Shown here: positions 2 through 17,651 of the stretch, piece by piece
Position numbering within the stretch: the first letter of the stretch is position 1
How the letters are laid out: each line of letters starts with the position of its first letter
Assembly: GCF_020911865.1 (NCBI RefSeq)
Contig: NZ_CP087131.1
Coordinates: forward strand, 2,108,001 to 2,172,000
From: Chryseobacterium sp. C-71
GTDB lineage: Bacteria; Bacteroidota; Bacteroidia; Flavobacteriales; Weeksellaceae
Direction of reading: 5' to 3'
DNA: 64,000 nt
Position numbers and translations under genes: made by a program
The notes under the pieces: generated by a model
Databases searched by the model: none
Seen by the model: the letters and a program-made list of their open reading frames with translations, nothing else
What the model was told of the DNA's origin: nothing

Positions 2-52
2 CAGTCCATCGAAGTGATGGCAAAATACATCGAAGAAAACAGAACAAAATAA
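2..52 (+). CDS. C-terminal end of an unidentified protein, cut by the window edge
   Basis: An open frame runs in from the left edge and stops at TAA 50-52, giving 16 residues ending in YIEENRTK. It is in the same orientation as the pigment genes that follow. In related flavobacteria the ketosynthase pair is preceded by other flexirubin or transporter genes, so this is probably another cluster member, but 16 residues cannot identify it. Confidence 0.4.
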   Translation, partial: QSIEVMAKYIEENRTK

Positions 53-157
53 TTCTTTTTATTTTGAACACTAAGTTCTCTAAGTCATTGTTAAAAAATT
101 GAAAATATTTTTCGTTCTCAACGGCTCTTTGCTCAGCAACGAACACCAATTGTATTT

Positions 158-238
158 TCTTGGCTGAGTGAAACGCCTTTGCGGACTTAAAAACAGAATT
201 ATTATAAAAAATCTTTGCGCTCTTTGCGTTAAAAAGAA
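158..238. repeat. Degenerate intergenic repeat (copy 1; second copy near 48.43 kb)
   Basis: This AT-rich spacer contains the blocks ACGCCTTTGCGGACTT and CTTTGCGCTCTTTGCGTTAA. A diverged copy with the same block order lies between acnB and acnA (about 48430-48510). Both are non-coding and sit just upstream of a plus-strand gene. The rest of 53-247 shows no convincing ORF. Confidence 0.5.
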
Positions 239-247
239 TTCAAATCA

Positions 248-1444
248 ATGAGTCAAAAAATTGCCATTACAGGAATGGGCATCATTTCCTCCATTGGTAA
301 CAATGTTGAGGAAAATTTTATTTCGCTGACGACCGGAAAACACGGCATTTCAGACATCGAATTGTTTGAAACACGCCACGCCGGAAGCATCAAAACAGGC
401 GAGATAAAATTGTCTAATGAAGAGCTTGCACAGAAACTTCAGCTACTTGAAGACAACAATTTAACAAGAACTGCTTTGTTGGGAATGGTCGCTGCAAAAG
501 AAGCTGTAGAAAGTGCCGGAATTTCGGATATCAACGAATATAAAACCGGACTCATCTCCTCCACAAGCGTGGGCGGAATGGATATCACCGAAAAATATTT
601 CTACACCTACGAAGATTTCCCTGAAAAACAAAAATATATTGATTCACACGATGCCGGAAATTCATCTTTGGCAATTGCAGAACTGTTGGGTCTGAAAGGA
701 ATGGTTTCTACCATCAGCACAGCCTGTTCGTCTGCAGCCAATGCGATTATGATAGGCGCAAAACTTATCAAAAACGGCGTTCTGGACCGTGTGATTGTTG
801 GCGGAACAGATTCGCTTTCGAAGTTTACTTTGAATGGATTTAATACGCTGATGATTCTCACCGATTCTTACAACACGCCTTTTGACAACGACAGAAAAGG
901 TCTAAACTTAGGCGAAGCAGCCGCTTTCCTAGTTTTGGAATCTGATGAAGTTGTAAAAAAAGAAAATAAAAAAGTACTCGCCTATCTTTCAGGTTACGGA
1001 AACGCCAACGATGCGCACCACCAAACCGCTTCTTCGGAAAACGGACAAGGTGCTTACTTGGCAATGGAAAAAGCATTGAAAGTTTCAGGTTTAAATAAAG
1101 AAAACATTGATTACATCAACGTTCACGGAACTGCAACTCCGAATAATGACTTGTCTGAAGGCATTGCAATGATTCGGATTTTTGGCGAAAATCAGGTTCC
1201 GGAATTCAGTTCAACGAAAGCGTTCACAGGTCATACTTTGGCAGCTGCGGCTGGAATTGAGGCGGTTTACTCGATTTTAGCAATGCGGAACAATGTGATT
1301 TTTCCAAATTTAAATTTCAAAACTAAAATGGAAGAATTTGATTTGACGCCGGTTACCGAACTGAAAGAGAAAAACATCAATCACGTACTTTCCAATTCAT
1401 TTGGATTTGGAGGAAACTGTTCAACTTTAATTTTTTCTAAATAA
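248..1444 (+). CDS. Beta-ketoacyl-ACP synthase (KS) of the flexirubin/aryl-polyene pathway
   Basis: This 398-residue thiolase-fold condensing enzyme of the FabF family would elongate an ACP-bound acyl chain with malonyl-ACP. The full catalytic set is visible: nucleophile Cys160 in STACSSA, His293 in NVHGTATP, Lys324 and His329 in STKAFTGH. Its stop codon overlaps the start of the next gene by one base (TAATG), so the two are translationally coupled. The partner lacks catalytic histidines, which is the layout of a KS/chain-length-factor heterodimer as in aryl-polyene and type II polyketide systems. The polyene role is inferred from the neighbours; the KS fold and active site are seen directly. 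Confidence 0.88.
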   Translation: MSQKIAITGMGIISSIGNNVEENFISLTTGKHGISDIELFETRHAGSIKTGEIKLSNEELAQKLQLLEDNNLTRTALLGMVAAKEAVESAGISDINEYKTGLISSTSVGGMDITEKYFYTYEDFPEKQKYIDSHDAGNSSLAIAELLGLKGMVSTISTACSSAANAIMIGAKLIKNGVLDRVIVGGTDSLSKFTLNGFNTLMILTDSYNTPFDNDRKGLNLGEAAAFLVLESDEVVKKENKKVLAYLSGYGNANDAHHQTASSENGQGAYLAMEKALKVSGLNKENIDYINVHGTATPNNDLSEGIAMIRIFGENQVPEFSSTKAFTGHTLAAAAGIEAVYSILAMRNNVIFPNLNFKTKMEEFDLTPVTELKEKNINHVLSNSFGFGGNCSTLIFSK

Positions 1445-2505
1445 TGAGTGCAGTTTACATCAACAGTGCTGCCTGCATCTCGGTTCAGGACACTTTAAAC
1501 GAAAACTTTTTTGACAATTTAAAGCCTGAAAATTCTGTTCAGGTTTTAAAAGCGATTGAGCCGAATTACAAAGAATTCATTCCGCCAGCAATGAGCAGAA
1601 GAATGTCTAAAACGGTAAAAATGAGTTCAGTAGCTTCCACAAAAGCTTTACAGGAAGCTGGAATCGAAAAACCCGATGCCATCATCGTCGGAACAGGAAT
1701 GGGTTGCTCTCAGGATTCTGAAAAGTTTTTAAAAAATGTTCTTGAAAATAATGAAGAATTTCTAACCCCAACGTTTTTTATTCAATCTACGCACAATACG
1801 GTTGCCGGACAAATTGCTTTGGGATTGCAGTGTCACGGCTATAATTTCACTTATGTCAACTGTTCTTCGTCGCTGGAATTCTCAATGCTGGATGCAAAAC
1901 TTCAGATTTTGGATGGCGAAGCAGATAATGTTTTGGTGGGTTCAACAGATGAACAAACCGACAGAACAATGGAATTGTTCAAGCTGAATGATTCGATTAA
2001 AAAAGAAAAAAATCTTCCTGTTGATTATTTAAATTCGACAACTGAAGGCGTGATTTGGGGCGAAGGTTCGAGCTTTTTCGTTTTAGGAAAAGATAAGACG
2101 GAAACTTCTTATGCACAATTAAAAGATATTCAAATTATTAACTCATTAAAATTAAATGAAACTCAACAATTCATCGAAGATTTTTTAGTTAAAAATAATT
2201 TGAAAAACCAAGATATTGAAGCTGTGATTTTAGGTTTCAGCGGAGATTCTGAATCGGATGTTTGTTATAAAAATGCTTCAGAATTATTTCCAAGTTCATC
2301 TTTATTGTATTACAAACATTTGAGTGGAGAATTCAATACAGCGAGTGGTTTTTCAACTTTTATGGCTTGTCAGATTCTTAAAAATCAAGTGATTCCTGAA
2401 GTGATGTTGATTAATGATCTGAAAAAAGAAAGCATTAAAAATGTGCTTTTGTATAATCATTTGAAAGGAAGCGACCATAGTTTGGTTTTGTTGGAGAAAG
2501 CTTAA
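1444..2505 (+). CDS. Chain-length-factor-like ketosynthase homologue
   Basis: This 353-residue KS-family protein is shorter and more diverged than its neighbour. The nucleophile position is still Cys140 (NCSSS), but where the first catalytic His is expected the segment reads ILGFSGDSES. The second motif is KHLSGEFN, keeping Lys291 but with Glu296 where KS has His. With both histidines gone it should not catalyse normal condensation. The likely role is the non-catalytic or length-setting half of a heterodimer with the KS whose stop overlaps its start. Unusually for a chain-length factor, the Cys has not changed to Gln. Confidence 0.78.
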   Translation: MSAVYINSAACISVQDTLNENFFDNLKPENSVQVLKAIEPNYKEFIPPAMSRRMSKTVKMSSVASTKALQEAGIEKPDAIIVGTGMGCSQDSEKFLKNVLENNEEFLTPTFFIQSTHNTVAGQIALGLQCHGYNFTYVNCSSSLEFSMLDAKLQILDGEADNVLVGSTDEQTDRTMELFKLNDSIKKEKNLPVDYLNSTTEGVIWGEGSSFFVLGKDKTETSYAQLKDIQIINSLKLNETQQFIEDFLVKNNLKNQDIEAVILGFSGDSESDVCYKNASELFPSSSLLYYKHLSGEFNTASGFSTFMACQILKNQVIPEVMLINDLKKESIKNVLLYNHLKGSDHSLVLLEKA

Positions 2506-2541
2506 TTTACTAGATTATTTTGTGTGAAAATAATCAGAGTC

Positions 2542-2623: not shown

Positions 2624-2658
2624 CAGATTGTTAAAGTTTAACTCCAAAAACAATAAAG

Positions 2659-3414
2659 ATGAAACATTATCCATTTATTATTTTTTATCTTTTCTTGAAT
2701 TTCTTTATTTACGCATTTCAAGGAACAATTTGGGTTTATATTTTCTGTTTCATACTCTTTTCTGCGGTTGTCATTTGGGGTTCTTTTGATATTCAATTAG
2801 GCTATTTTGTCAACAGTTTTACCCATAAACGAACAAAAAATAATGAAGTTGCTTTAACTTTCGATGACGGACCGACAGAATTTACACCGAAGTTTTTAGA
2901 TATTTTAAAAGAGAATAACATCAAAGCTACCTTTTTCTGCATCGGAAAACAGATTGAAAAATACCCAGAAACGTTCCAAAGAATTATTACGGAAGGTCAT
3001 ACAATTGGAAATCACACTTTTTCACATTCAAATAACACCGGATTTTTATCAACTACTAAAATGATTGAAGAAATTGAAAAATGTGATGAAATAATTTTCA
3101 AAACAGGAAATATTACAACTAACCTTTACCGCCCACCTTTCGGAGTAACTAATCCGAATATTGCGAAAGCAATCAAGAAAACACAGAAAAAAAGTATCGG
3201 TTGGAATGTTCGTTCTTTGGACACTGTGATTACGGACGAGAAGAAAATTTTAAGGAAAGTAACAAAAGGTTTGAAAAAAGACAGTATCATTCTGCTTCAC
3301 GATACTTCGGAAAAAACGTACAATGTTTTGGTCGAATTATTGTTATTTTTGGAGCGTCAAAAGTATTCAACTTTCACTATTGATTCAATATTTAAATCTA
3401 AAAATAATGTTTAA
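2659..3414 (+). CDS. Membrane-anchored polysaccharide deacetylase (NodB domain)
   Basis: This 251-residue protein has two hydrophobic N-terminal segments (about 5-20 and 24-42) followed by a NodB/CE4 domain. The metal and catalytic motifs are present: Asp69-Asp70 in TFDDGP, and His119 and His123 in GNHTFSHS. A later RPPFG and a C-terminal LLHD complete the family pattern. CE4 enzymes remove N-acetyl groups from sugar polymers. Its place within the pigment cluster, overlapping the LolA-like gene by 8 nt, suggests envelope remodelling or glycan trimming linked to pigment insertion. The substrate is unknown. Confidence 0.82.
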   Translation: MKHYPFIIFYLFLNFFIYAFQGTIWVYIFCFILFSAVVIWGSFDIQLGYFVNSFTHKRTKNNEVALTFDDGPTEFTPKFLDILKENNIKATFFCIGKQIEKYPETFQRIITEGHTIGNHTFSHSNNTGFLSTTKMIEEIEKCDEIIFKTGNITTNLYRPPFGVTNPNIAKAIKKTQKKSIGWNVRSLDTVITDEKKILRKVTKGLKKDSIILLHDTSEKTYNVLVELLLFLERQKYSTFTIDSIFKSKNNV

Positions 3415-4033
3415 AAATATAGCTTTCATAGCACTTTTATTAATTTCAACTTTTGTTTTTGCACAGAACACAGCAATGACGAGCGCTGAATCTAAAGCAT
3501 TCGTGACAAAAATTTCTGCTGAAACCAAAGAAATTAAAACTTTGCAAAGTGATTTTGTTCAGACAAAAAAAATGGATTTTTTAGATAAAAATATTGTCAC
3601 ACAAGGTAGGCTGTCTTTGAAATCTCCAAATATTTTAAGTTGGAAATACACAAAACCTTATCAATACAGCATTATTTTTAAGGAAAATAAAATCTTCATC
3701 AACGATCAGGGTAAAAAATCTTCGGTTGATGCCAAAAGCAAAACCTTTGAAAAAATCAATAAACTGATTGTCGGAAGTTCGAACGGAAAAATGTTCAACG
3801 ATCCGGAATTTTCTGTGGTTTATTTGAAAAATTCAAGTACAAATATTGCTAAATTTACTCCAAAATCTGCTCAATTGTTGAAATACATCAAACAAATCGA
3901 ACTTCATTTTCCTAAAAATCAATCGACAGTTTCTCAAGTTAATATGACTGAAGCTTCCGGCGATACAACGAATATTGTTTTCAAAAACACCAAAATCAAT
4001 GCGCCGATTCCTGCTGCTGAGTTTTCTTTATAG
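3407..4033 (+). CDS. LolA-like outer-membrane lipoprotein carrier
   Basis: The preferred start at 3407 gives 208 residues with a clean signal peptide ending in FVFAQ. An upstream in-frame ATG at 3323 lies inside the deacetylase gene and adds a non-signal-like leader. The mature part has the LolA pattern: a KEIKTLQSDFVQTK helix, then a beta-rich region with NILSWKYTKPY. LolA proteins shuttle lipidated cargo across the periplasm. Aryl-polyene clusters commonly carry a dedicated LolA-like member, thought to help move the lipid-linked pigment to the outer membrane. The start overlaps the previous gene by 8 nt. Confidence 0.8.
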   Translation: MFKNIAFIALLLISTFVFAQNTAMTSAESKAFVTKISAETKEIKTLQSDFVQTKKMDFLDKNIVTQGRLSLKSPNILSWKYTKPYQYSIIFKENKIFINDQGKKSSVDAKSKTFEKINKLIVGSSNGKMFNDPEFSVVYLKNSSTNIAKFTPKSAQLLKYIKQIELHFPKNQSTVSQVNMTEASGDTTNIVFKNTKINAPIPAAEFSL

Positions 4034-4634
4034 TTCGTTTTTTTTGCTTTTGGTTTCTTGTAAATCTTATCAGCTAAAAGACGTAAAATCGGTTTCAAAT
4101 ACAGAAAAAACGGTTGAAAATCTTTACTTTTCATCAAAAGAAGATTACGTGTATAAATGTCAGATGGATATTTATAAAAATCACATCAGTGGAATTTTAA
4201 TTATTAAAAAAATCTCTGATACCACACATCGAGTTGTAATGACTTCTGATTTTGGGAATAAAATGATTGATTTTGAAATTTCGGAAAGTGATTTTAAGCT
4301 CAACTATGTTTTGGCAGATTTAGACAAAAAAATGGTTATTAATTTTCTGAAAAATGATTTTCAGGAATTATTACGACAGAAATATCCTGTTGCTGAAAGT
4401 TTTGAAAATGAAAACTTTAGTATTTTTCGATCAGAACTAGATAAAAAAAATTATTACCTGTCTTTCAATAAAGAAAATTCTCTTCTAACAAAAATTGTTT
4501 ACACAAAGAATAATAAGGAGAAAATCAATTTTAGTTTTGAAGCTAAAAAACCTACTTTTGCAGAGATGATTAATCTTGAACATAAAGATTTCAAAATCAA
4601 TATTAAACTATTTCAAATTACCGAAACTGAATAA
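3999..4634 (+). CDS. Predicted lipoprotein of the pigment cluster, function unknown
   Basis: From the ATG at 3999 this encodes 211 residues with an arginine-containing n-region, a long hydrophobic core and a lipobox ending LLVSC, so it should be a lipoprotein. An alternative start at 3975 only adds eight residues before the signal. The gene overlaps the LolA-like gene by about 35 nt and ends 2 nt before the dehydratase start, so it is part of the same transcript. The rest is charged and beta-rich with no motif I recognise. Aryl-polyene loci often have a small lipoprotein next to lolA, and this may be the equivalent. Confidence 0.7.
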   Translation: MRRFLLLSFLYSSFFLLLVSCKSYQLKDVKSVSNTEKTVENLYFSSKEDYVYKCQMDIYKNHISGILIIKKISDTTHRVVMTSDFGNKMIDFEISESDFKLNYVLADLDKKMVINFLKNDFQELLRQKYPVAESFENENFSIFRSELDKKNYYLSFNKENSLLTKIVYTKNNKEKINFSFEAKKPTFAEMINLEHKDFKINIKLFQITETE

Positions 4635-4636
4635 AT

Positions 4637-5011
4637 ATGCAAACGATTCTTACTGACTTTTATACGTTGGAAACTCAGGAAAAAACAGAAAGCGGAAGTT
4701 TTATCGCAAATATCAAATTAAATCAGGCTCACGATATTTTTAACGGGCATTTTCCTGGAAATCCGGTAACTCCTGGAGTTTGTATGATGCAGATTGTGAA
4801 AGAGCTTACTGAAGAATTTACAGGGAAAAAACTATTTCTAAAATCTGCTTCTAATGTAAAATTTATGGCGATTATCAATCCTTTCGAAACGCCTTATCTT
4901 AGGATACAGCTTGATATTAACGAAGGTGAAAATGAAGTGAAGGTAAAAAACATAACTTCCTTTGGCGAGACTATTGCATTGAAAATGTCAGTTAATTATA
5001 CAAAAATATAG
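4637..5011 (+). CDS. FabZ/ApeI-like hotdog 3-hydroxyacyl-ACP dehydratase with altered active site
   Basis: This 124-residue single-hotdog protein carries the FabZ signature HFPGNPVTPGV with catalytic His38. The acidic residue normally 14 positions later (Glu in FabZ) is Gln52 here. It would dehydrate 3-hydroxyacyl-ACP to build the conjugated polyene, unless the Gln makes it a partner subunit of another dehydratase encoded outside the window. It sits between two pigment-cluster genes with spacings of 2 nt and 1 nt. Confidence 0.8.
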   Translation: MQTILTDFYTLETQEKTESGSFIANIKLNQAHDIFNGHFPGNPVTPGVCMMQIVKELTEEFTGKKLFLKSASNVKFMAIINPFETPYLRIQLDINEGENEVKVKNITSFGETIALKMSVNYTKI

Positions 5012-5012: not shown

Positions 5013-5498
5013 ATGAAACTGATATTATCTTTTTTCGCTGGACTATTTTTCTTTTTTCAGTCTTCTGATTTAGAAGTTTTGAGAAATGCTTATTCTAAAG
5101 CAAATTCATCAAATGAAGGTGCAAAAAACTTCATTGAAATTGCGGAGAAAAACTCTGCTTCTGATCCGTTGACTAAAGGATACAAAGCTGCTGCAGAAAT
5201 TCTTGAAGCCAAAGTAACTACAGAAAAAAACAAAAGAAAATCTTTCGTGAAATCTGGTGCTACAGAATTAGAAAGTGTGATAAAATCTAATCCCAATAAT
5301 GTCGAACTGAGATTGATCAGAATGAGCGTTCAGGAAAACATTCCGAAAATTGTGGGTTACTCTAAAAATCTTAAAGAAGATAAAATGTTCATCATCGACA
5401 ATTATAGCAGACAAAATCCTGCTCTGAAAACTTATATTAGAAAATTTGCATCGCAGTCTAAAACAATGAATGCAGCAGAAAAAAATTCTTTAAGATAA
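5013..5498 (+). CDS. Small exported protein of the pigment cluster, function unknown
   Basis: This 161-residue product has an N-terminal hydrophobic signal (LILSFFAGLFFFF) and a helical, lysine-rich mature region with alternating charge. There are no cysteines and no catalytic motif I recognise. It lies 1 nt after the dehydratase and 4 nt before the glycosyltransferase, so co-transcription is nearly certain. Its length and helical nature would suit a periplasmic accessory or chaperone-like factor, but that is only inference. Confidence 0.65.
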   Translation: MKLILSFFAGLFFFFQSSDLEVLRNAYSKANSSNEGAKNFIEIAEKNSASDPLTKGYKAAAEILEAKVTTEKNKRKSFVKSGATELESVIKSNPNNVELRLIRMSVQENIPKIVGYSKNLKEDKMFIIDNYSRQNPALKTYIRKFASQSKTMNAAEKNSLR

Positions 5499-5502: not shown

Positions 5503-6675
5503 ATGACTCTTTCTGAAGTACAGAATGCAATTGACGAGAGGAAAATCTGCGTTTTAATTCCTACCTATAACAACGAAAAGACACTTCAAAGAGTGATTGA
5601 CGGCGTTTTAGAATACACGCAAAACATCATTGTTGTCAACGACGGTTCTACAGATTCTACTTCAGAAATTCTAAAAACTTATTCTCAACTTACCATTCTC
5701 AATTTACCTGAAAATAAAGGGAAAGGAAATGGTTTAAAAATCGGTTTCAGAAAAGCAAAAGAATTAGGTTACCATCACGCCATCACGATTGATTCAGACG
5801 GACAGCATTATCCAAACGATATTCCCGTTTTTGTAGAAGCATTATTGAATGAAAATCAAGATGTTTTATTAATTGGAAACCGAAATATGTCACAAGACGG
5901 AATTCCTAAGAAAAGCAGTTTCGGAAATCGTTTTTCTAATTTCTGGTTCTGGTTCGAAACCGGAATTAAACTGGAAGACACACAATCTGGTTACCGCTTA
6001 TATCCTTTGCATAAAATTCCAAAAAAATATTTCACTCCAAAATTTGAATTTGAAATTGAAATCATTGTACGGACAGCCTGGAGACATATTCCTGTAAAAA
6101 ATATCCCGATAAAAGTTCTGTATGACCCTGCAGAAAGGGTTTCTCACTTCAGACCGTTCAAAGATTTTACGAGAATCAGTATTTTAAATACAATTTTGGT
6201 GGTGATTACTCTTTTGTATATTATTCCCCGAAATTTCATCAATAATTTCAGAAAAAAAAGTTTCAAGAAATTTATCAGAGAAGATGTCTTAGAAAGTGAC
6301 GGAAGTAATCGCACCAAAGCATTTTCTATTGCGCTCGGTGTTTTCGTAGGGTTCTCTCCTTTTTGGGGATTTCACACACTGCTTGTCATTTCTTTATCGG
6401 TTTTATTCAAACTCAATAAAGTTCTGGCTTTTGTAGCTTCAAACGTGAGTTTGCCGCCGTTTATTCCATTTATCATTGTGTCATCACTTTATTTGGGAGC
6501 ACCATTTGTAGCGGGAGATAGCGATATTTTTCGTCAGGAATGGAATTTCGATTTAGTGAAAAATAATGTTTTACAATACGTGATTGGAAGTCTTATCCTG
6601 GCAACTTCAATGTCACTAATTTCCGGAATCGCAACGTTTTTATTTCTGAATAAAGTAACTCCTGAGAATAATTAA
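5503..6675 (+). CDS. Family 2 glycosyltransferase fused to a DUF2062 membrane domain
   Basis: This 390-residue protein has a GT2 domain over about residues 12-230. Visible motifs are LIPTYNNE, VNDGSTD (Asp47) and the metal-binding DSDGQH (Asp97, Asp99). A hydrophobic segment near 232-248 leads to a DUF2062 domain (about 275-385) with its GVFVGFSPFWGFHTLL motif. GT2-DUF2062 fusions are a recurrent component of aryl-polyene clusters and are presumed to add a sugar or lipid-sugar anchor to the pigment. It is the last plus-strand gene of this block and ends 8 nt before the convergent C45 gene. The acceptor is unknown. Confidence 0.83.
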   Translation: MTLSEVQNAIDERKICVLIPTYNNEKTLQRVIDGVLEYTQNIIVVNDGSTDSTSEILKTYSQLTILNLPENKGKGNGLKIGFRKAKELGYHHAITIDSDGQHYPNDIPVFVEALLNENQDVLLIGNRNMSQDGIPKKSSFGNRFSNFWFWFETGIKLEDTQSGYRLYPLHKIPKKYFTPKFEFEIEIIVRTAWRHIPVKNIPIKVLYDPAERVSHFRPFKDFTRISILNTILVVITLLYIIPRNFINNFRKKSFKKFIREDVLESDGSNRTKAFSIALGVFVGFSPFWGFHTLLVISLSVLFKLNKVLAFVASNVSLPPFIPFIIVSSLYLGAPFVAGDSDIFRQEWNFDLVKNNVLQYVIGSLILATSMSLISGIATFLFLNKVTPENN

Positions 6676-10055: not shown

Positions 10056-10940
10056 TTAATCAATATCATCCCAAAAATCGAAATAGTTGAACCATTGAAG
10101 CGGATATTTCTGAATCATTGATTCAAGATTCTTAGTGTAAGAGTTCAAAAGTCCCTGCGCATCACGTTTTTTCACGTTTTCAGCAATTCTCGCATACAAA
10201 TGATAATGTAGATTTTTTTCTTTCATCACATAGACATAAACCACCGGAACGCCTAATCTTGAAGCAATAAGGAACGGACCTGCAGGAAATTTTGCACTTT
10301 TTCCTAATAAATCTCCCTCAAGAAATTTTGAACCTTCAAAATAACGATCGCCTGTAAAGCAAATCAATTCGTTCTTAGATAAAGCCTCATTGATGTTAAA
10401 AATATGCGACATGTCGTCTTTCACGTAGATGAATTTAATGTTGCTCTGTTTTACAGAAACACTTTCAAGATATTCTTTAATTACCGTAACTTCCTGATCT
10501 GTAGTAACTAAATTAATCTGACAATCGAAATCAATTTCGGCAAAAAAATGTTCTGCAATTTCGAAATTCCCGATGTGGGCACTGATGAGAACTCCGCCTT
10601 TTTTTTCTGCTAAAAGATTTCTGAGATTTTCTATTCCGTCGAATTCGTAGGTGTATTTATTTCTTAAACCTGCAGAAATTGCGGTTTTGTCAATAAGAAT
10701 CGTTCCAAAAGTAAAATAACTTTTAAACAGAGAAATTTTCGTTTTCCAAAACCCATAATTGAGTCTTTTTTGGAAGTAATAGCGGTAATATTTATTGCTG
10801 TTTTTTTCGAATAGAAAATAGTAGAAAGCTACGAAATAAAGAACAAAATAAGAACTTCGGATTCCCATATTTCTAATGGACCAGACAAAGATTCTGTAAC
10901 CTAAGATGGTGCCTTTAGATTTGCCTTTCCACTTGTTCAT
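10056..10940 (-). CDS. LpxL-like lysophospholipid/lipid A acyltransferase
   Basis: With the start at 10940 the product has 294 residues (MNKWKGKSKG...). A longer reading from 10979 would take its first 13 codons from a dispersed repeat and is less likely. The family motif SAHIGNFE supplies the HX4E acyltransfer dyad, and a basic aromatic-rich segment precedes it. Such enzymes transfer acyl chains from ACP to a lipid acceptor at the inner membrane. Aryl-polyene clusters usually contain one, believed to attach the polyene acyl chain to its lipid anchor, which fits the ACP gene immediately upstream. Confidence 0.82.
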   Translation of the reverse strand: MNKWKGKSKGTILGYRIFVWSIRNMGIRSSYFVLYFVAFYYFLFEKNSNKYYRYYFQKRLNYGFWKTKISLFKSYFTFGTILIDKTAISAGLRNKYTYEFDGIENLRNLLAEKKGGVLISAHIGNFEIAEHFFAEIDFDCQINLVTTDQEVTVIKEYLESVSVKQSNIKFIYVKDDMSHIFNINEALSKNELICFTGDRYFEGSKFLEGDLLGKSAKFPAGPFLIASRLGVPVVYVYVMKEKNLHYHLYARIAENVKKRDAQGLLNSYTKNLESMIQKYPLQWFNYFDFWDDID

Positions 10941-10951
10941 AATTTTAATTT

Positions 10952-11035: not shown

Positions 11036-11302
11036 TTAAGCTTTTTTTTCAGTGATTTTATTTTCGATTGTCGAGTAGAAATCGTCGAAAGTGACGATAT
11101 TTTTGAAATCGGCTTCACCTAATTTCACGCCAAAATTGGATTCGATGACCACCACTAAATCGATATAATCTAAACTGTCTAAACCCAAAGTCTTTTTAAA
11201 ATGGGCATCATTGCTGATCTCATCACCATCTACCTCAAATTCATTTATTAAAAAATCATTCGCAATGGCAACAATTTTTTCTCTTTCCATGTTTTTACTC
11301 AA
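11036..11302 (-). CDS. Acyl carrier protein
   Basis: This is an 88-residue acidic protein with the phosphopantetheine attachment motif GLDSLD at Ser43, typical ACP length and a four-helix pattern. It would carry the growing aryl-polyene chain for the KS, KR and DH enzymes encoded around it. The start at 11302 overlaps the ketosynthase gene by 8 nt. A second in-frame ATG at 11290 lies just after the ketosynthase stop and is also possible. The gene order KS-ACP-acyltransferase suits loading and off-loading of one dedicated chain. Confidence 0.9.
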   Translation of the reverse strand: MSKNMEREKIVAIANDFLINEFEVDGDEISNDAHFKKTLGLDSLDYIDLVVVIESNFGVKLGEADFKNIVTFDDFYSTIENKITEKKA

Positions 11303-12515
11303 ATTTTTTAACGATTAATGCAGAATTTGTTCCTCCGAATCCGAAAGAATTCGACAAAAATACGTCAATTTTTTGATTTTTAGTTTCGGAGATTAAATTT
11401 ATCTTTTTTGCGTCTTCATCAGGGTTTTCTAAATTGATGTTCGGAGCCACAAAATCGTTTTGCATCATCAGAATAGAATAGATTACTTCACTTGCACCCG
11501 CCATCCAGCATTCGTGACCGGTCATTGATTTGGTCGAGCTTACAGGAACTTCGCTTCCGAAAATCTCATGGATAGCTTTTGCTTCGTTGGCGTCGCCGAT
11601 CGGTGTTGAAGTCGCATGAGCATTGATGTAGTCGATATCTTTCACTTCGAGACCGGATTGTTTTAAAGCGCGGTTCATTGCCAAAGCGGGACCGTCAATA
11701 TTTGGGGTAGAAATATGTCCGCCGTTTGAAGAAAATCCGTAACCAACGATTTCTGCGATGATATTGGCACCTCTTTTTTGAGCTGATTCTAAACTTTCCA
11801 CAATTAAAGAAGCTGCTCCGCCACTTGGAATTAAGCCATCTCTTCCTGAGTCGAAAGGTCTTGACGCTTTGGTTGGCTCATCTTCTCTCACTGAAAAAAC
11901 GCCCAAACCATCGAAGCTTGCCATTGAATATTTATTGGTTTCCTGGGCACCGCCACAAACGATGATGTCCTGAAAACCGTTTTTAATCATCATATAAGCC
12001 AATCCCAAAGAATGAGAACCGCTTGCGCAAGCTGCACTGATGGTTAAATTGATTCCTCTTAATTTAAAAATCGTAGAAAGATTCATCGTCACAGTGGAAT
12101 TCATCGATTTAAAAATCGCTCCTGAACCCATTAAAGTGGTATCTTTTTTCTCTCTTGCAATGTCGATCGATTCTACTACGGCCTTAGAAACGCTGTCGTT
12201 TCCGTATAAAATTCCGACTTCTTTTTGGTCTAAAAAGTCCTGAGTTATATTCGCCTGTTGTAAAGCATCGAGTGTTGCAATGTATGCATACTCGCTTTCT
12301 TCACCCATGCTTATACGCTGGCGTCTGTTGAGGAGATTTTTCAAGTCAGGCTTGGGAACAACTCCGCTAAGACCAGACCTGAAACCAAATTCTTTTCTCT
12401 CATCGACTAAAACGATTCCGGACTTACCATTATACAGGGATTCTTTCACTTCTTCCAAAGAAGTTCCGATGCAAGAATAAATTCCCATTCCGGTAATGAC
12501 TACCCTATTTTCCAT
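11295..12515 (-). CDS. FabF-type beta-ketoacyl-ACP synthase
   Basis: This 406-residue condensing enzyme has its catalytic triad intact: Cys163 in SAACASGSHS, His300 in INAHATSTP, and Lys329 with His334 in STKSMTGHE. FabF-like enzymes perform decarboxylative Claisen condensation with malonyl-ACP. It lies between the fabG-like gene and the ACP gene, overlapping the latter. Together with the heterodimeric KS at the left edge this gives the pathway at least two condensing systems, for instance one for priming or early cycles and one for extension. Which does what cannot be read from sequence. Confidence 0.88.
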   Translation of the reverse strand: MENRVVITGMGIYSCIGTSLEEVKESLYNGKSGIVLVDERKEFGFRSGLSGVVPKPDLKNLLNRRQRISMGEESEYAYIATLDALQQANITQDFLDQKEVGILYGNDSVSKAVVESIDIAREKKDTTLMGSGAIFKSMNSTVTMNLSTIFKLRGINLTISAACASGSHSLGLAYMMIKNGFQDIIVCGGAQETNKYSMASFDGLGVFSVREDEPTKASRPFDSGRDGLIPSGGAASLIVESLESAQKRGANIIAEIVGYGFSSNGGHISTPNIDGPALAMNRALKQSGLEVKDIDYINAHATSTPIGDANEAKAIHEIFGSEVPVSSTKSMTGHECWMAGASEVIYSILMMQNDFVAPNINLENPDEDAKKINLISETKNQKIDVFLSNSFGFGGTNSALIVKKFE

Positions 12516-12528: not shown

Positions 12529-12603
12529 ACAATGTATCAGTCTAGCAATGTAACAATTTACATATTGGTAACCTGGTACATTATTATATTGTTACATTAT
12601 TTA
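12529..12603. repeat. Dispersed repeat (copy 2 of a pair flanking the ACP/KS genes)
   Basis: This copy is related to 10952-11012: AACAATGTATCAG, AGCAATGTAACAAT, ATATTGGTAA and the same ending GTTACATTATTTA. The right end runs into the stop codon of the fabG-like gene (12601-12603), so the insertion may have set or replaced the end of that reading frame. Confidence 0.6.
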
Positions 12604-13332
12604 CGAATAAATTCCTCCGTTAATATTAATAATTTCTCCTGTGATGTATGAAGATTTTTTTGACACTAAAAAAGCGACCAAATCTGCCACTTCTTCCGCT
12701 TCGCCAAATCTATTTGCCGGAATCATGGCTTTCAATTCATCTTCGTTGAAATCCTGAGTCATATCGGTTTTAATGAAACCTGGTGCAACTGCATTCACTG
12801 TGATATTTCTCTTGGCAACTTCCTGAGCGAGAGCTTTTGTAACTCCGACCAAAGCTCCTTTCGCAGCTGAATAATTGGTTTGTCCGGCTGTTCCTTTTAC
12901 CCCAGAAACTGAAACCATATTGATGATTCTGCCGTATTTGTTTCTCAACAATTTCTGAATGAAGAAATTGGTCACATTATAAAAACCATTTAAACTCGTG
13001 TTAATCACAGAGTTCCAATCCTCACTCGGCATCCACATAAATAATCCGTCTCTTGTGATTCCGGCATTGTTGACAATGACCTCAACTATAGATTTTGGAT
13101 TATTTTCCTGCCATTTATTTAAAACTTTTTGAGTTTCCTCAGCGTTTCCTACATCGAATTTAAGAATTTCTCCTGTAGAACCCAACTCTTCAACTTTGGC
13201 TAAAGTTTCCTTTGCTGCAGCTTCATTGGAAGTGTAATTAATTAAAATATGATAATTTTTCTCTTCAGCCAGTTTTATACAGATTGCTCTTCCGATTCCA
13301 CGGGAACCACCTGTTATGATTGCACATTTCAT
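12601..13332 (-). CDS. FabG-type 3-oxoacyl-ACP reductase
   Basis: This 243-residue short-chain dehydrogenase has the NADP(H)-binding GGSRGIG near residue 8, NNAG near 88-91 and the catalytic set Ser141, Tyr154 and Lys158 (YSAAK). It would reduce the 3-oxoacyl-ACP made by the ketosynthases to 3-hydroxyacyl-ACP, the substrate for the dehydratase. It sits directly upstream of the KS, ACP and acyltransferase genes on the minus strand, so it is most likely the pathway's own ketoreductase rather than the primary fatty-acid enzyme. Confidence 0.88.
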   Translation of the reverse strand: MKCAIITGGSRGIGRAICIKLAEEKNYHILINYTSNEAAAKETLAKVEELGSTGEILKFDVGNAEETQKVLNKWQENNPKSIVEVIVNNAGITRDGLFMWMPSEDWNSVINTSLNGFYNVTNFFIQKLLRNKYGRIINMVSVSGVKGTAGQTNYSAAKGALVGVTKALAQEVAKRNITVNAVAPGFIKTDMTQDFNEDELKAMIPANRFGEAEEVADLVAFLVSKKSSYITGEIININGGIYS

Positions 13333-13352
13333 GTGTAGTTTTTATGTTTAAT

Positions 13353-13451: not shown

Positions 13452-13455
13452 TGCT

Positions 13456-14973
13456 TTATTTTTTCAAGTAATCTTTTACCTTTTGCAAATAAGGATACAT
13501 CACCATATCATTTGAAAATGCAGGAATAATTTTTCTAATTTCATCGTACAATTCTTTTGTTGAAGACGAAACTTTATCTTTAAAACCAAGATATTCTATC
13601 GCCTGAACAACAGTAATGGCTTCAATCGCCAACACTTCAAAAGCATTTTCAATTACTTTTCTGCAAATCACTGCAGCATTCGTTCCCATGCTTACAATAT
13701 CCTGATTATCATTATTATTAGGTATACTGTGAACGTACATCGAATTCGATAACATCTGGCTTTCTGCCGTTGTTGAAGTCGCCGTAAACTGAACGCCTTG
13801 CATTCCAAAATTGAAACCTAATTTACCCAAATTTACGAAAGGAGGCAAGATTTCGTTGATTTTTGAATTCAAAAGATAATTCAATTGTCTTTCTGCCAAC
13901 ATTGTCAGTTTTGTCACGACAATTTTAAGCTTATCCATTTCCAAAGAAATATAATCTCCGTGGAAGTTTCCGCCGTGGTAAACATGTTTGTCTGCAACGT
14001 TAATGATTGGGTTATCGTTTGCCGAGTTGATTTCGTTTTCTAAAACTTTCTCTGTATATTCTAAAGTATCTAAAACCGGACCTAAAATCTGAGGAATACA
14101 TCTCAAAGAATAATATTCCTGTACTTTTTCTTTGAAAACCTTTTCCTGTTCTTCAAAGTGAGTGTATAAATGATCTGCTCTTTTTCTGATTAATTTACTA
14201 TCGGCTAAATGACTACGCATTTTTTCTGCAATTTTTTGCTGACCTGCGTGAAGCTTTGTTCCGTTCAGTACTTCTGAAAAATGGTCATCGTATGCCTGAA
14301 CAATTTCGTTGATAGCACAAGATAATTTAATTGAAATTTCTATTAACTGATTGGCTTTGTACGCATTAACAATTCCAATTCCTGACATCACAGAAGTTCC
14401 GTTCATTAACGCTAAACCTTCACGAATTTCAACCTGAATTGGTTCCAAACTTTCAGTTTCAAAAACTTCTTTGGTCGATTTTCTTTCTCCTTTATAGAAA
14501 ACTTCACCTTCGCCAATTAAAACTAAAGCTAAATGTGCCAATTGTACCAAGTCTCCACTTGCTCCTACTCCGCCGTGTTCAAAAATCAACGGCGTAATAT
14601 CTCTGTTTATTAATTCTTTAAGTAAATTCACGACAGATTCATGAACTCCTGAATTTCCTAATGACAAAGTGTTCAATCTTGCCAACATACAAGCTTTCAC
14701 TTCATCGGCAGGAAGCGGATTTCCGATACCCGAAGAATGGCTTCTGATTAAATTATATTGAAGTTGATGCGTATCTTCATCACTGATTTTAAACTGAGCC
14801 ATCGGTCCGAAACCAGTGTTCACTCCATAAATCACTTTATTTTTTGAAAATTCTTTCAGAAAAGAAAAACTCTCATTCACTCTTTGGAGAATTGACAGAT
14901 CTAATTCTATGCTTTCATTTTCGATAATAATTCTCTGAAAATCTTTCAGTTCTAAAAATTTATTTATTTTCAT
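13456..14973 (-). CDS. Tyrosine ammonia-lyase (aromatic amino acid lyase, MIO enzyme)
   Basis: This 505-residue lyase self-assembles its MIO prosthetic group from Ala138-Ser139-Gly140 in GGVGASGDLVQL. Catalytic Tyr49 sits in VIYGVNTGFGP. From memory the protein is very similar along its length to the characterised Flavobacterium johnsoniae TAL, including the NLIRSHSSG selectivity segment. It would convert tyrosine to 4-coumarate, the aryl starter of flexirubin. The selectivity pair is Ser78-His79, which resembles histidine ammonia-lyases, so automatic annotation as hutH is a likely error. No hutU, hutI or hutG lies nearby, and the neighbours are a KS, an ACP, a reductase and a CoA-ligase-like gene. 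Confidence 0.88.
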   Translation of the reverse strand: MKINKFLELKDFQRIIIENESIELDLSILQRVNESFSFLKEFSKNKVIYGVNTGFGPMAQFKISDEDTHQLQYNLIRSHSSGIGNPLPADEVKACMLARLNTLSLGNSGVHESVVNLLKELINRDITPLIFEHGGVGASGDLVQLAHLALVLIGEGEVFYKGERKSTKEVFETESLEPIQVEIREGLALMNGTSVMSGIGIVNAYKANQLIEISIKLSCAINEIVQAYDDHFSEVLNGTKLHAGQQKIAEKMRSHLADSKLIRKRADHLYTHFEEQEKVFKEKVQEYYSLRCIPQILGPVLDTLEYTEKVLENEINSANDNPIINVADKHVYHGGNFHGDYISLEMDKLKIVVTKLTMLAERQLNYLLNSKINEILPPFVNLGKLGFNFGMQGVQFTATSTTAESQMLSNSMYVHSIPNNNDNQDIVSMGTNAAVICRKVIENAFEVLAIEAITVVQAIEYLGFKDKVSSSTKELYDEIRKIIPAFSNDMVMYPYLQKVKDYLKK

Positions 14974-15021
14974 TAATTAAAGTAATAAGAGATAATTTTG
15001 TAAGATATAATTAATTGTCAC

Positions 15022-15039: not shown

Positions 15040-15057
15040 AAAAGTTTTATTAAACAA

Positions 15058-16302
15058 ATGGACAAAGAAATTGTTGATGTTTTGGTAATTGGAGCTGGGC
15101 CTTCAGGATGCGTCTCTTCTGCTTATTTGAAGAAGAACAATATCAACGTAAAAGTGGTTGAAAAAACAAAATTCCCAAGACTTGTAGTGGGTGAAAGCCT
15201 TATTCCGAGAGTAATGGATCATTTTGATGAAGCCGGACTGTTTTCCGCTTTAGATAAAATGGGCTTTGAAAAGAAATTGGGAGCTCGTTTTATGCGAGGA
15301 AATGAAGTTTGTATTTTCGATTTCAGCAACAAATTTGGTGAAGGATGGGACTGGACATGGCAGGTTCCGAGAGCTGACTTTGACAATACTTTGGCTCAGG
15401 AGGTGATTAATAAAGGAGTTGATCTTGAATTTGAAACTGAAGTAATCGGAATTGAATTTAACGGAACAGATTCTATCACAACTGTCAAAAACAGAGACGG
15501 AAAAACAAAGGAAATTCATGCAAAATTTGTAATCGACTCGAGCGGTTACGGAAGAGTTCTTCCAAGACTTTTAGATTTAGAGAAACCTTCGAAGCTGTCT
15601 CCGCACTCTGCGATTTTTGCTCATGTAGAGGATATTAACAGAGAAGAAGGTGAAGAAGGAACTTTAATTTCATTTGATATTATAGAAACGGAAGTTTGGC
15701 TTTGGGTTATTCCTTTTTCTAACGGAAATACGAGCGTAGGAATTGTCGGACCTACTGAATATATTGACAAATTATCTGAAAGCGGCGATGCTGCGGAGGC
15801 CTTGAGAAAAGCAATTTCTCTATCAGATTATTATGTAAAACGTTTCGGAGAGGTAGAATTTTTATTTGAACCGAGACATTTGAAAGACTATTCATGTTCG
15901 GTAAAAAAATTATTCGGAGACGGATTTGCTTTGACTGGAAATGCCTCTGAATTCCTTGATCCTGTCTTTTCATCAGGAATGGCATTTGCCACAGAAGGCG
16001 GAATGACTGCCGCAAAACTGGCAATCAGACAATTGAAAGGTGAGAAAGTAGATTGGCAAACAGAGTTTGCTGATTATATATTATACGGTGTTAACGTTTT
16101 TACAACGTATGTAAAAGAATGGTATACCGGAAATCTTCAGGAATTGTTTTTCCATCAGCCGGAAAACCCTGATGTGAAAAGAAAAATATGTGCCGTTTTG
16201 GCGGGATATGTCTGGGACAAAAAAAATACATTTGTGAGAATACACGATACGGCAATTGTCAACTTAGCTAATTTCATTAAAACAGAAAAAGAAAAAGCAT
16301 AA
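15058..16302 (+). CDS. Flavin-dependent halogenase/hydroxylase-like enzyme of the pigment cluster
   Basis: This 414-residue FAD enzyme of the tryptophan-halogenase superfamily has GAGPSG at residues 12-17 and GESLIP at 45-50. A lysine pair at 72-73 before LGARF lies where carrier-bound-substrate halogenases keep a catalytic lysine. WLWVIP at 214-219 fits the WxWxIP signature associated with halogenases. Flexirubins are known in chlorinated and hydroxylated forms, so it likely modifies the aryl ring made by the divergently transcribed lyase. The choice between chlorination and hydroxylation cannot be settled from sequence. A perfect hairpin directly follows the stop codon. Confidence 0.72.
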   Translation: MDKEIVDVLVIGAGPSGCVSSAYLKKNNINVKVVEKTKFPRLVVGESLIPRVMDHFDEAGLFSALDKMGFEKKLGARFMRGNEVCIFDFSNKFGEGWDWTWQVPRADFDNTLAQEVINKGVDLEFETEVIGIEFNGTDSITTVKNRDGKTKEIHAKFVIDSSGYGRVLPRLLDLEKPSKLSPHSAIFAHVEDINREEGEEGTLISFDIIETEVWLWVIPFSNGNTSVGIVGPTEYIDKLSESGDAAEALRKAISLSDYYVKRFGEVEFLFEPRHLKDYSCSVKKLFGDGFALTGNASEFLDPVFSSGMAFATEGGMTAAKLAIRQLKGEKVDWQTEFADYILYGVNVFTTYVKEWYTGNLQELFFHQPENPDVKRKICAVLAGYVWDKKNTFVRIHDTAIVNLANFIKTEKEKA

Positions 16303-16336
16303 CAAGAGCGGTCTGAAATTTCAGACCGCTCTTGTT
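16301..16336. terminator. Bidirectional terminator hairpin
   Basis: A perfect 36-bp palindrome (arm AACAAGAGCGGTCTGAAA) begins at the stop codon of the flavoenzyme gene and ends 2 nt before the stop of the convergent ligase gene. It can end transcription from both sides. Confidence 0.85.
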
Positions 16337-16337
16337 G

Positions 16338-17651
16338 TTATCTTAAATCTATAAACGTAATGGGTTTTCGGCTGTTCGGATTAAAAACCGTTTTAGACAA
16401 AACATCAAATTCTACAATTTCAATTTTTGGACTGACTCTTAATTTCGCTCGGAAATGATCACGAACTTCGCCTTCAAAACTTTCGTCTTCTCTTTCTGTG
16501 CTGAGTTTGATAATAATTTCGTCCAAACCAATTTCATTCGACTGAATTACAATCTGGTAACATAAAATTCCGTCAAAATCATTCAGAATATCATTCATTG
16601 CAGGCGGATATAATGTTGTTCCTTTATATTTGATCATCTGCTGTTTTCTTCCGACAACAGGCCCCAATCGCATCGTATTTCTTCCACATTGACACGGGTC
16701 GTAATGCGCTTTAACTAAATCTCCCGTTTTAAATCTCAATAAAGGTAAAGCCTCAACACCTAAAGTGGTGATCGTCAGTTCGCCGCTTTCGCCCTCTTTC
16801 ACAGGATTTTCTTCGTCATCAAGAATTTCTGTGATGATCAATTCTGGATGCTGATGTCCACCGATCTGAAATTCACATTCTGTAAATGCTGTGCTCATTT
16901 CAGTTGACGCATAAGTGGAAAATAATTTTATATTCCACTTTTCTTTAATCTTTTGTGATAAAATATTGTCTGTAAAATCCTGATTTTTGATGCTTTCACC
17001 AATACAAACCGCTCCGATAACGCTTGATTTTTTATAATCAATCCCATGTTTTTCAGCGTAGTCAATCATTTTTAAAAGAAATGAGGGTACCGTTATCAAA
17101 TACTTAGGTTTATATCTGAAAATAGAATCCCATTGAAGTTCAGGAATTCCGGGTCCCATTCTGATGACACTTGCTCCCATTTTTCGTAAACCCAAAAGAT
17201 AAGCGAGCCCGGCAATAAATCTTTTGTCAATCGTCGTTATCATTTGTACAACGTCGCCTTTTTGAATTCCTGCACAAGAAAGAGATATTGCCTCGTTGTA
17301 AGCGATTCTCTCCATATCATTTTCTGAAAGTCCAAAAGTTACAGGATCACCCAATGTTCCGGAAGTTGTACTATAATCAACAATTTCATTTTGGGGAACA
17401 CAGAAAAAGTCTTCATTATTCTGCTGAATGTCATTTTTCGATGTCGTCGGGATTTTCTGCAAATCTTCCAAAGTCTGAATATCAGAAATCTGAATATTAT
17501 TTTCTTTGAACAGCTTCTGGTAAAAAGGCGAATGCGCTTCAAGATATTGTAAAAGCTCCTGAAGTTTTTCTTCCTGAAACTTTTTGATGTCCTGAATGCT
17601 TGATTTCTCAATGAGTGGGAAGAGTTCCAATAGTTTAAATTTAGATGACAA
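16338..17651 (-). CDS. PaaK-like adenylate-forming ligase (probable coumarate-activating enzyme)
   Basis: This 437-residue protein has the length of phenylacetate-CoA ligase. The nucleotide-binding loop STTSGTLGD is at about 94-102 and the C-terminal domain has GPVVGRKQQMIKYKGTTLYPPA. A Cys-containing CQCG segment near residue 325 is also typical of this family. PaaK-like enzymes adenylate aryl acids and load them onto CoA or a carrier protein. In this context the natural substrate would be 4-coumarate, giving the starter for polyene extension. The gene converges on the halogenase-like gene through a shared terminator and is the rightmost gene I assign to the cluster. Confidence 0.8.
   Translation of the reverse strand: MSSKFKLLELFPLIEKSSIQDIKKFQEEKLQELLQYLEAHSPFYQKLFKENNIQISDIQTLEDLQKIPTTSKNDIQQNNEDFFCVPQNEIVDYSTTSGTLGDPVTFGLSENDMERIAYNEAISLSCAGIQKGDVVQMITTIDKRFIAGLAYLLGLRKMGASVIRMGPGIPELQWDSIFRYKPKYLITVPSFLLKMIDYAEKHGIDYKKSSVIGAVCIGESIKNQDFTDNILSQKIKEKWNIKLFSTYASTEMSTAFTECEFQIGGHQHPELIITEILDDEENPVKEGESGELTITTLGVEALPLLRFKTGDLVKAHYDPCQCGRNTMRLGPVVGRKQQMIKYKGTTLYPPAMNDILNDFDGILCYQIVIQSNEIGLDEIIIKLSTEREDESFEGEVRDHFRAKLRVSPKIEIVEFDVLSKTVFNPNSRKPITFIDLR

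Follow-up and report, generated by a model that had tools for sequence, protein, structure and literature searches.

Identity and extent of the cluster

Flexirubins are a chemotaxonomic marker of the Bacteroidota. The left end of the 64,000-nucleotide stretch of Chryseobacterium sp. C-71 DNA analysed here (the window) carries a block of polyene, starter and decoration genes, raising the question of which pigment this block would make and how that pigment would be assembled, decorated and exported. Positions 1-17651 are the right-hand portion of the flexirubin cluster of a Chryseobacterium-type genome, as the sequence-only reading had proposed: five window proteins (FlxA, FlxB, FlxY, LolA2 and LolB2) score above the NCBI flexirubin cut-offs, and dar genes lie further left. 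The scores of FlxA, FlxY, FlxB and LolA2 relative to their cut-offs (Table 1) exclude chance. Judged by its genes, the whole locus is almost certainly a flexirubin biosynthesis and export cluster of about 44 kb (G000:C1:2081558-2125651), the right 17.6 kb of which lie in the window. It is an ordinary bacterial cluster for flexirubin, an orange outer-membrane pigment, and a type of system already known. Gene identity, order, motifs and co-occurrence are what we established directly, and the activity of every enzyme in the cluster we infer from homology.

Table 1. Features of the predicted flexirubin cluster within the window (bits vs cut-off where given; some gene starts are our own choice)
Feature	Position	Strand	Evidence
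ACP1, 3' end	1..52	+	gene G000:C1:2107795-2108052, start left of window; 85-aa frame L004:9795-10052; 83 bits to NF006617; Asp-Ser motif
Beta-ketoacyl synthase KS2	248..1444	+	PRK09185 311 bits (below cut-off 407); Cys158, His-Gly, His328 region
Chain-length-factor-like KS	1444..2505	+	PF00109 52 bits; without KS catalytic pattern
Polysaccharide deacetylase-like protein	2659..3414	+	TIGR02764 147 bits (below cut-off 237)
LolA2 periplasmic carrier	3410..4033	+	LolA2_flexi NF053544, 249 bits vs 125
LolB2 lipoprotein	3999..4634	+	LolB2_flexi NF053540, 256 bits vs 60 (scored on 3975-4631); lipobox LVSC
FabZ/FabA-like dehydratase DH3	4637..5011	+	PF07977 32 bits; in 77/80 named loci among matches listed
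Conserved 161-aa protein	5013..5498	+	no family match; in 76/80 named loci among matches listed
GT2 glycosyltransferase fused to DUF2062	5503..6675	+	PF00535 91 bits, PF09835 66 bits
C45 autoproteolytic acyltransferase, predicted lipoprotein	6684..8333	-	NF040521 230 bits vs 85; lipobox LISC; nucleophile G174/C175
Carotenoid-isomerase/desaturase-like flavoenzyme	8323..9858	-	TIGR02730 117 bits, far below cut-off
LpxL-like acyltransferase	10056..10943	-	PF03279 45 bits
Acyl carrier protein ACP2	11036..11287	-	NF002148 51 bits (below cut-off 71); Asp-Ser motif
Beta-ketoacyl synthase KS3	11295..12515	-	PRK07967 390 bits (below cut-off 630); Cys-His-His patterns
FlxB ketoreductase	12601..13332	-	NF053542 418 bits vs 340
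FlxA tyrosine ammonia-lyase	13456..14973	-	NF053541 898 bits vs 700; Ala-Ser-Gly at 138; substrate predicted
Halogenase-like flavoenzyme (HalFAD)	15058..16302	+	PF04820 79 bits; nearest solved chain 3nix, 479 bits; Lys73, WxWxIP
FlxY 4-coumarate-CoA ligase	16338..17651	-	NF053551 730 bits vs 520; right cluster end; substrate predicted

All parts listed by the sequence-only reading (KS, chain-length-like KS, DH, ACP, second KS, KR, LpxL-like acyltransferase, LolA-like carrier, GT2-DUF2062, ammonia-lyase, ligase and halogenase-like enzyme) are open frames with family support, and the polyene core of KS, chain-length partner, ACP, KR and DH is complete in the cluster. Beyond that list the window holds the deacetylase, LolB2, the 161-aa frame, the C45 acyltransferase and the carotenoid-isomerase-like flavoenzyme. 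The Cys-His-His pattern occurs in both full ketosynthases of the window, Ala-Ser-Gly in FlxA and Asp-Ser in both ACPs; none of the KS patterns searched for matched the chain-length-like KS. Rightwards there follows an isoleucyl-tRNA-synthetase-like frame of 1132 aa (18027-21425, recognised by eye), and we therefore placed the cluster end at 17651. Truncation at the window edge is ruled out, as a single contig carries every part. Window positions 1-8000 had no match in a plasmid search.

Genes to the left of the window

The dar genes and exporter that the earlier reading had expected leftwards are there, on the same contig: an ABC pair at 4.5 kb from the window, DarH at 7.1 kb (508 bits, cut-off 300), DarB at 20.7 kb (NF053539, 630 bits, cut-off 550) with a DarA-like frame directly before it, and an MMPL-acyltransferase exporter at 22.8 kb. 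Two further dehydratases also lie left of the window, and the dedicated LolA2 and LolB2 together with the MMPL exporter would supply the export side. At E 0.001 neither Pfam nor NCBIfam gave a family for DarA; its putative assignment draws on its position and on a distant homologue from a Streptomyces plasmid (28% identity), which likewise adjoins a KAS III and an ACP. That the locus is a plain aryl-polyene cluster without dialkylresorcinol is extremely improbable, for although none of the cluster proteins encoded inside the window is a dar product, the DarH, DarB and DarA-like genes 7-23 kb leftwards refute this reading by gene content.

About 11 kb of other genes separate the dar genes from DarH in the Chryseobacterium sp. 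C-71 genome, so that their co-regulation is not assured; DarB and DarH are only 1-2 kb apart in four relatives. No mobile-element gene was recognised by eye among the frames of this block, and pieces of it match scattered places among the matches listed from 30 genomes of the genus.

Comparison with known clusters

The flexirubin clusters of F. johnsoniae UW101 and C. pinensis, as described in the parts of PMC3992019 drawn on here, likewise contain FlxA, FlxB, FlxY, several KSs, dehydratases, LolA, a deacetylase, a glycosyltransferase, an acyltransferase, an exporter and darA/darB. According to the same parts of that source, the dar genes of F. johnsoniae belong to the region, as they do here, but those of C. 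pinensis are located elsewhere. Chryseobacterium sp. C-71 further differs in the 11 kb that separate its dar genes from DarH. In the Chryseobacterium-type order, C45 and the isomerase-like gene stand between GT2 and the LpxL-like gene and the MMPL gene adjoins darA, whereas Flavobacterium relatives keep MMPL, isomerase, C45 and FlxY together.

Among proteobacterial aryl-polyene (APE) clusters, the ape cluster of E. coli shares the KS/ACP/DH/KR core, glycosyltransferase, acyltransferase, RND exporter and LolA/LolB-like parts, but its gene table, so far as PMC8253772 is used here, has no ammonia-lyase, dar gene, C45 or flavoenzyme, and it differs in its 4-hydroxybenzoate starter and in a methyltransferase encoded as a separate gene. 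In the portions of PMC3949708 considered, the arcuflavin clusters of Azoarcus BH72 also combine polyene and dialkylresorcinol with a BtrH-like gene, an ABC transporter, LolA and a halogenase entry, but they use a 3-hydroxybenzoate starter made via chorismatase and are split into two unlinked polyene loci and a dar locus.

Distribution of the cluster genes

Eight markers were sought across 197 genomes of the class. The numbers of genomes in which a match was kept were 36 for FlxY, 35 for FlxA, 36 for DarB, 34 for DarH and 36 for MMPL. All eight occur together in 31 of the 197, and our Fisher tests of such co-occurrence ignore shared ancestry. The carotenoid-isomerase-like gene accompanies the MMPL protein in 36 of 37 genomes.

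The 80 named loci are those listed from one scan, and the C. pinensis and F. johnsoniae loci lie outside this set. Among the matches listed, 32 of 33 Chryseobacterium-type loci agree in gene order over whatever length of flank or contig is available; the remaining locus (L141) is a 4.2-kb contig with four genes in the same order. Two Maribacter loci (L177 and L181) carry C45 without FlxY nearby.

Proposed pathway

FlxA would deaminate tyrosine to 4-coumarate, which FlxY would convert to 4-coumaroyl-CoA. The ACPs, the KS/chain-length partners, FlxB and the dehydratases would then extend the 4-coumaroyl starter to an aryl polyene, and DarA/DarB would join two fatty-acid intermediates into a dialkylresorcinol. 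DarH, the envelope C45 or both may link polyene and resorcinol as an ester. The pigment or a lipid-linked precursor would reach the outer membrane by means of the MMPL-acyltransferase, the ABC pair, GT2, the LpxL-like enzyme, LolA2 and LolB2. Chlorination of the aryl ring is the probable task of the halogenase-like enzyme, and ring methylation is predicted to be lost; the predicted product is thus a ring-unmethylated, possibly chlorinated flexirubin. The earlier claim that the window spans the route from tyrosine to the loaded starter agrees, from FlxA to FlxY, with the description of C. pinensis and F. johnsoniae in the parts of PMC3992019 used here. The same parts report the FlxA and FlxY reactions and resorcinol formation by darA/darB as demonstrated for C. 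pinensis, the first two steps being the only ones of the polyene route assayed there.

Formation of the ester

We give about an even chance to ester formation in the cytoplasm, where DarH, a BtrH-like acyltransferase, would join polyenoyl-ACP and resorcinol, the finished pigment would be exported, and C45 would be otherwise employed, for example in trimming or removing a lipid carrier. BtrH acts on acyl-ACP. DarH, which NCBI names an acyltransferase, is found in 34 of the 36 DarB genomes vs 0 of the 161 others, and genome G106 retains it while lacking C45, MMPL and the isomerase-like gene. The Azoarcus dar cluster, in the parts of PMC3949708 seen here, includes a BtrH-like gene. Against cytoplasmic esterification, DarH is missing from G069 although DarB and C45 are present (it is missing from G142 too, whose assembly, however, is in 360 contigs), and a near-universal envelope C45 would be left without a defined job.

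We regard esterification in the envelope more tentatively, at rather less than even. Here C45 would take the polyenoyl moiety off a lipid-linked carrier, exported via MMPL/LolA2/LolB2, and attach it to the resorcinol hydroxyl. C45 occurs in 34 of the 36 DarB genomes and in none of the 161 others, with FlxY within 3 kb in 24 of 34. Its Gly-Cys nucleophile is invariant (22/22), and its N-terminus has a lipobox in the five members of the order and a hydrophobic stretch in the other 18 examined. The structure model (pLDDT 87.7; Foldseek top matches 2x1d/2x1c) has isopenicillin N acyltransferase as nearest fold, then acid ceramidase and NAAA. C45 is a predicted envelope protein of the C45/AAT Ntn acyltransferase type, but the fold is also compatible with a hydrolase. 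Within 10-12 kb around the halogenase-like gene in the aryl-polyene clusters of Pseudoalteromonas, Cupriavidus and Acinetobacter, C45 and DarB alike were unmatched, which speaks for esterification by C45, as does the retention of C45 without DarH in G069. However, two genomes with DarB and DarH, G106 (listed as 100% complete) and G023, gave no C45 match at E <= 1e-60, and an ester of this kind is likewise predicted for the pigment of Azoarcus, although its gene table, in the portion of PMC3949708 consulted, has a BtrH-like protein and no C45.

Halogenase-like enzyme

The sequence-only reading had counted the halogenase-like flavoenzyme among the decoration genes. The gene is present, but its occurrence in 33 of the 36 DarB genomes vs 0 of the 161 others places it in the core and rules out an optional decoration. 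The FAD motif, catalytic Lys and WxWxIP, which we take to be the defining features of flavin-dependent halogenases, are retained: the three Gly, Lys73, W216, I218 and P219 occur in 64 of 64 aligned sequences and W214 in 63 (the L078 sequence, at 24% identity, is a different protein and was excluded).

A role as a non-halogenating, core redox enzyme of aryl-polyene pathways is possible, at a little under even. Consistent with it are the near-constant presence in DarB genomes and homologues at 38-42% identity in the aryl-polyene clusters of Pseudoalteromonas, Acinetobacter and Cupriavidus. Further, the published C. pinensis flexirubin has the halogen-free formula C43H54O4 (PMC3992019, in part), and arcuflavin is non-brominated though its cluster lists a halogenase (PMC3949708, in part). 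The retained signature argues against a redox role, as do the chlorinated flexirubins stated to exist in the part of PMC3992019 used.

Methyltransferase domain of the MMPL exporter

The SAM motif of the C-terminal methyltransferase domain of the MMPL protein is kept in 25 of 26 proteins outside the Flavobacteriales and in 0 of 52 within; in Chryseobacterium sp. C-71 the motif I position reads HIADDFGQ. Pfam found methyltransferase matches in all three intact proteins searched; among five Flavobacteriales domain pieces it gave no match for four and a non-methyltransferase match below cut-off for the fifth. Judged by SAM motif I together with a Pfam match, the domain does not class as a class I SAM methyltransferase, and methylation by it is predicted to be lost. 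Its structure model still resembles SAM-binding enzymes.

It is unlikely, in our estimate, that flexirubin assembly ends outside the cytoplasm, with a lipid-linked polyene passed through MMPL/LolA2/LolB2 and esterified onto resorcinol by C45, and that the fused domain of the Flavobacteriales has also become a conserved, non-SAM-binding domain with the signature H-x-x-x-D-x-G-Q. Such a domain would leave pigments ring-unmethylated, for the halogenase-like enzyme to modify. If true, a split in pigment chemistry would be readable from a single motif.

Implications

Cross-genome comparison singled out three parts as priorities: the acyltransferase predicted to be exported, the halogenase-like enzyme and the apparently decayed methyltransferase. 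To a known cluster type these would add an envelope C45 with an invariant nucleophile, a core halogenase-like enzyme and loss of the SAM motif from the exporter-fused domain in Flavobacteriales, as far as sequence comparison indicates. Eight markers over 197 genomes narrow the ester question to two candidates, DarH and C45, for which G106 (DarH without C45) and G069 (C45 without DarH) are natural test genomes. The halogenase-like gene is placed in the core, and the methyltransferase motif predicts which clades have unmethylated pigment.

Leftward extension of the cluster

All 12 gene types that the sequence-only reading listed for the window were recovered there by open frames and family searches. 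Five window proteins passed NCBIfam flexirubin-family cut-offs: LolA2 (249 bits, cut-off 125), LolB2 (256, cut-off 60), FlxB (418, cut-off 340), FlxA (898, cut-off 700) and FlxY (730, cut-off 520). PMC11885536 already proposes LolA2 and LolB2 as flexirubin-specific. The genome is a single contig of 4.22 Mb, and the dialkylresorcinol genes and exporter expected to the left were indeed found there (Table). In the genus relative G020 a dehydratase, the 134-aa gene and DarH stand side by side and the block of about 11 kb is missing at that place; DarB and DarH are 1-2 kb apart in three further relatives of the order (G062, G095 and G175).

Table. Features of the flexirubin cluster left of the window, on the contig of the window genome (G000:C1); L003 and L020 are fetched loci
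Feature	Position	Remark
MMPL-acyltransferase	2081558-2085211	
Methyltransferase-like domain	C-terminal part of the MMPL protein 2081558-2085211	L020:11555-12208
DarA-like	2085254-2086168	
DarB	2086171-2087310	
Two dehydratases	after DarB, ending 2088333	
Block of other genes, about 11 kb	about 2088340-2099440	L003:340-11440; PAP2-like, M16 peptidase, several small frames; names by eye
134-aa frame	between the 11-kb block and DarH	
DarH	2099860-2100855	
ABC pair	2101542-2103549	
Thioesterase, KS, 179-aa frame, in that order	between the ABC pair and ACP1	
ACP1	2107795-2108052	extends into the window

Between DH3 and GT2 (window 5013-5498) lies a gene for a 161-aa protein that matches no family and is present in 76 of the 80 named loci listed. 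A second ammonia-lyase gene lies outside the cluster (C1:1728165-1729535) and presumably encodes the ordinary histidine enzyme.

Co-occurrence across the class

Eight markers were searched in one set of 197 genomes of the class and then tallied. FlxY was kept in 36 genomes of the 74 with any match (33 over the cut-off, plus G050, G154 and G008 with weaker or split matches), DarB in 36 of 39 matching genomes and DarH in 34 over the cut-off of 38 matching. C45 (34 genomes), the halogenase-like gene (33) and MMPL (36) were kept at E 1e-60, FlxA (35) at 1e-160 and the isomerase-like gene at 1e-40 (37 of 43 genomes, six under 248 bits being dropped). The three genomes dropped for DarB (G011, G030 and G173), with only ~400-bit matches in frames of 617-635 aa, were counted among the 161 without it; with G023 included, the open frames that hold such a match measure 616-635 aa and perhaps encode a fusion.

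All eight markers occur together in 31 genomes. C45 was found in 34 of the 36 DarB genomes, the halogenase-like gene in 33 and DarH in 34, compared with none of the 161 others in each case (Fisher p ≤ 3e-33, by a test that assumes independent genomes, which genomes of one class are not). A marker may have been missed, because scoring in every search was confined to a few top candidates from a first look. G023 (170 contigs) lacks FlxY and C45, G051 (70 contigs) lacks FlxA, halogenase-like gene, MMPL and isomerase, and G142 (360 contigs) lacks DarH. Better evidence comes from three other genomes: G106 (80 contigs, listed as 100% complete) has FlxA, FlxY, DarB and DarH, with C45, halogenase-like gene, MMPL and isomerase not found; G069 (6 contigs, 99% complete) has DarB and C45, with DarH and halogenase-like gene not found; and G155 (1 contig, 99% complete) has FlxY, MMPL and isomerase, with FlxA, DarB, DarH, C45 and halogenase-like gene not found. 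G099 carries only MMPL and isomerase of the eight, and G129 only the isomerase.

Gene order

Gene order was compared in 31 of the 36 FlxY class genomes (G142, G086, G050, G154 and G008 were left out). Named genomes were scanned once with a C45 alignment, and the best 80 of 560 relatives were taken as loci; C45, being the query, is present in all 80 by construction, and FlxY is within reach in 77 of those listed. Among the matches listed, those nearest to the C45 gene of the window are Chryseobacterium copies, at up to 85% identity, and the window genome is accordingly treated as Chryseobacterium-type.

Chryseobacterium-type loci make up 33 of the 80 listed (L110-L141 and L174) and come from Chryseobacterium, Epilithonimonas, Cruoricaptor, one record titled Flavobacteriaceae bacterium PS02293 and one Weeksellaceae MAG. 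The order FlxY-HalFAD-FlxA-FlxB-KS3-ACP2-LpxL-isomerase-C45, HalFAD being the halogenase-like gene, is found in 32 of them; after C45, GT2, DH3 and onwards follow on the opposite strand, within the limits of flanks and contigs (the L135 contig stops after C45). L174 gave no match for LolB2 or the thioesterase and otherwise has the shared order; L141, a 4.2-kb contig, holds only ACP2-LpxL-isomerase-C45. The remaining 47 loci have a Flavobacterium-type order, two of them, from Maribacter, without FlxY. These two (L177 and L181) have C45 and no FlxY within 10 kb, and in L181 (Maribacter flavus, 9098-11635) the isomerase-like gene and C45 are separated by a frame that looks cupin/JmjC-like by eye.

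Related genes also occur on plasmids. The 122-kb Aureispira plasmid pAUEa carries MMPL-methyltransferase, isomerase-like, C45, FlxY and halogenase-like genes (L212 1-12074), and a Streptomyces linear plasmid typed as mobilizable has consecutive ACP, KAS III, DarA-like and FAD monooxygenase genes (L214 3562-7666), possibly a dialkylresorcinol unit in actinomycetes.

The halogenase-like enzyme

The closest solved chain to the halogenase-like enzyme is 3nix from Cytophaga hutchinsonii (479 bits), followed by several flavin-dependent halogenases including CmlS and PltA. In an alignment of 64 sequences (the window, 27 of the 32 other class genomes carrying the gene, 32 named loci and four plasmid records), Lys73, W216, I218 and P219 never vary, while 63 of the sequences have W214. 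In 20 of 33 genomes FlxA or the isomerase-like gene is found no more than 1 kb from this gene, and in 26 of the 33 at least one of FlxA, isomerase, FlxY and C45 is found no more than 15 kb away, contig ends limiting both counts. Pseudoalteromonas and Acinetobacter aryl-polyene clusters have a 38% homologue between the exporter and a LolB-like gene, and an ammonia-lyase is also there; a Cupriavidus aryl-polyene-like cluster holds a 42% homologue, with no FlxA match seen in it. The enzyme is thus core to flexirubin clusters and shared with other aryl-polyene clusters. PMC3992019 states that chlorinated flexirubins exist, but the C. pinensis pigment is halogen-free.

C45, DarH and the ester

All 23 C45 copies examined have a Val-Gly-Cys nucleophile site. 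Five copies of this order (the window, G020, G062, G095 and G175, the last recognized by eye after the script pattern missed it) have a lipobox, and the other 18 have, by eye, an N-terminal hydrophobic stretch in its place; from these features the catalytic domain is predicted to lie in the envelope. The closest fold to the structure model (pLDDT 87.7) is that of isopenicillin N acyltransferase, with acid ceramidase and NAAA next, and the C-terminal part weakly matches tetratricopeptide repeats. In PMC5932025, C45 already figures as a label in a set of flexirubin/APE orthologue groups mapped to F. johnsoniae; we found no proposal for its role among the open-licence papers searched. For ester formation, PMC3992019 suggests a ligase-like FlxW. 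NCBI's name for DarH points to DarH, which we give an even chance of making the ester; that C45 makes it is a tentative second choice.

The methyltransferase-like domain of the exporter

A protein related to the exporter carries an NCBI name that makes it trifunctional (MMPL, acyltransferase and SAM methyltransferase). Of the 78 MMPL copies whose C-terminal part we aligned, 52 belong to Flavobacteriales (one in the window genome, four in class genomes and 47 in named loci assigned there by organism name); the other 26 lie outside the order, one on the Aureispira plasmid and 25 in class genomes. Outside the order, 25 of the 26 copies retain the SAM motif D-[ILVMF]-G-C-G-[YF]-G, G155 being the exception; none of the 52 Flavobacteriales copies sampled does, and in 47 of these H-[LIVM]-x-x-D-x-G-Q or a near relative of it stands there instead. 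Pfam methyltransferase families matched all three intact proteins tested and none of five Flavobacteriales ones, queried with the C-terminal piece only; a search with the full-length MMPL protein of that order from the window genome likewise found no methyltransferase at E 0.001.

The closest structures to the model of this domain (pLDDT 82) are nicotianamine synthase and, after it, methyltransferases, with modest TM-scores of at most 0.53 in the rows displayed between ranks 1 and 50. All 16 of 16 sequences compared share the His, Asp, Gly and Gln of the replacement motif. The degenerate domain thus seems to be retained for some purpose.

Ring methylation in C. pinensis was demonstrated with labelled methionine (PMC3992019). 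The MMPL-fused domain may be the ring methylase, and no further methyltransferase turned up in the cluster proteins that were scanned. We predict that ring methylation would be absent in Flavobacteriales unless another enzyme supplies it.
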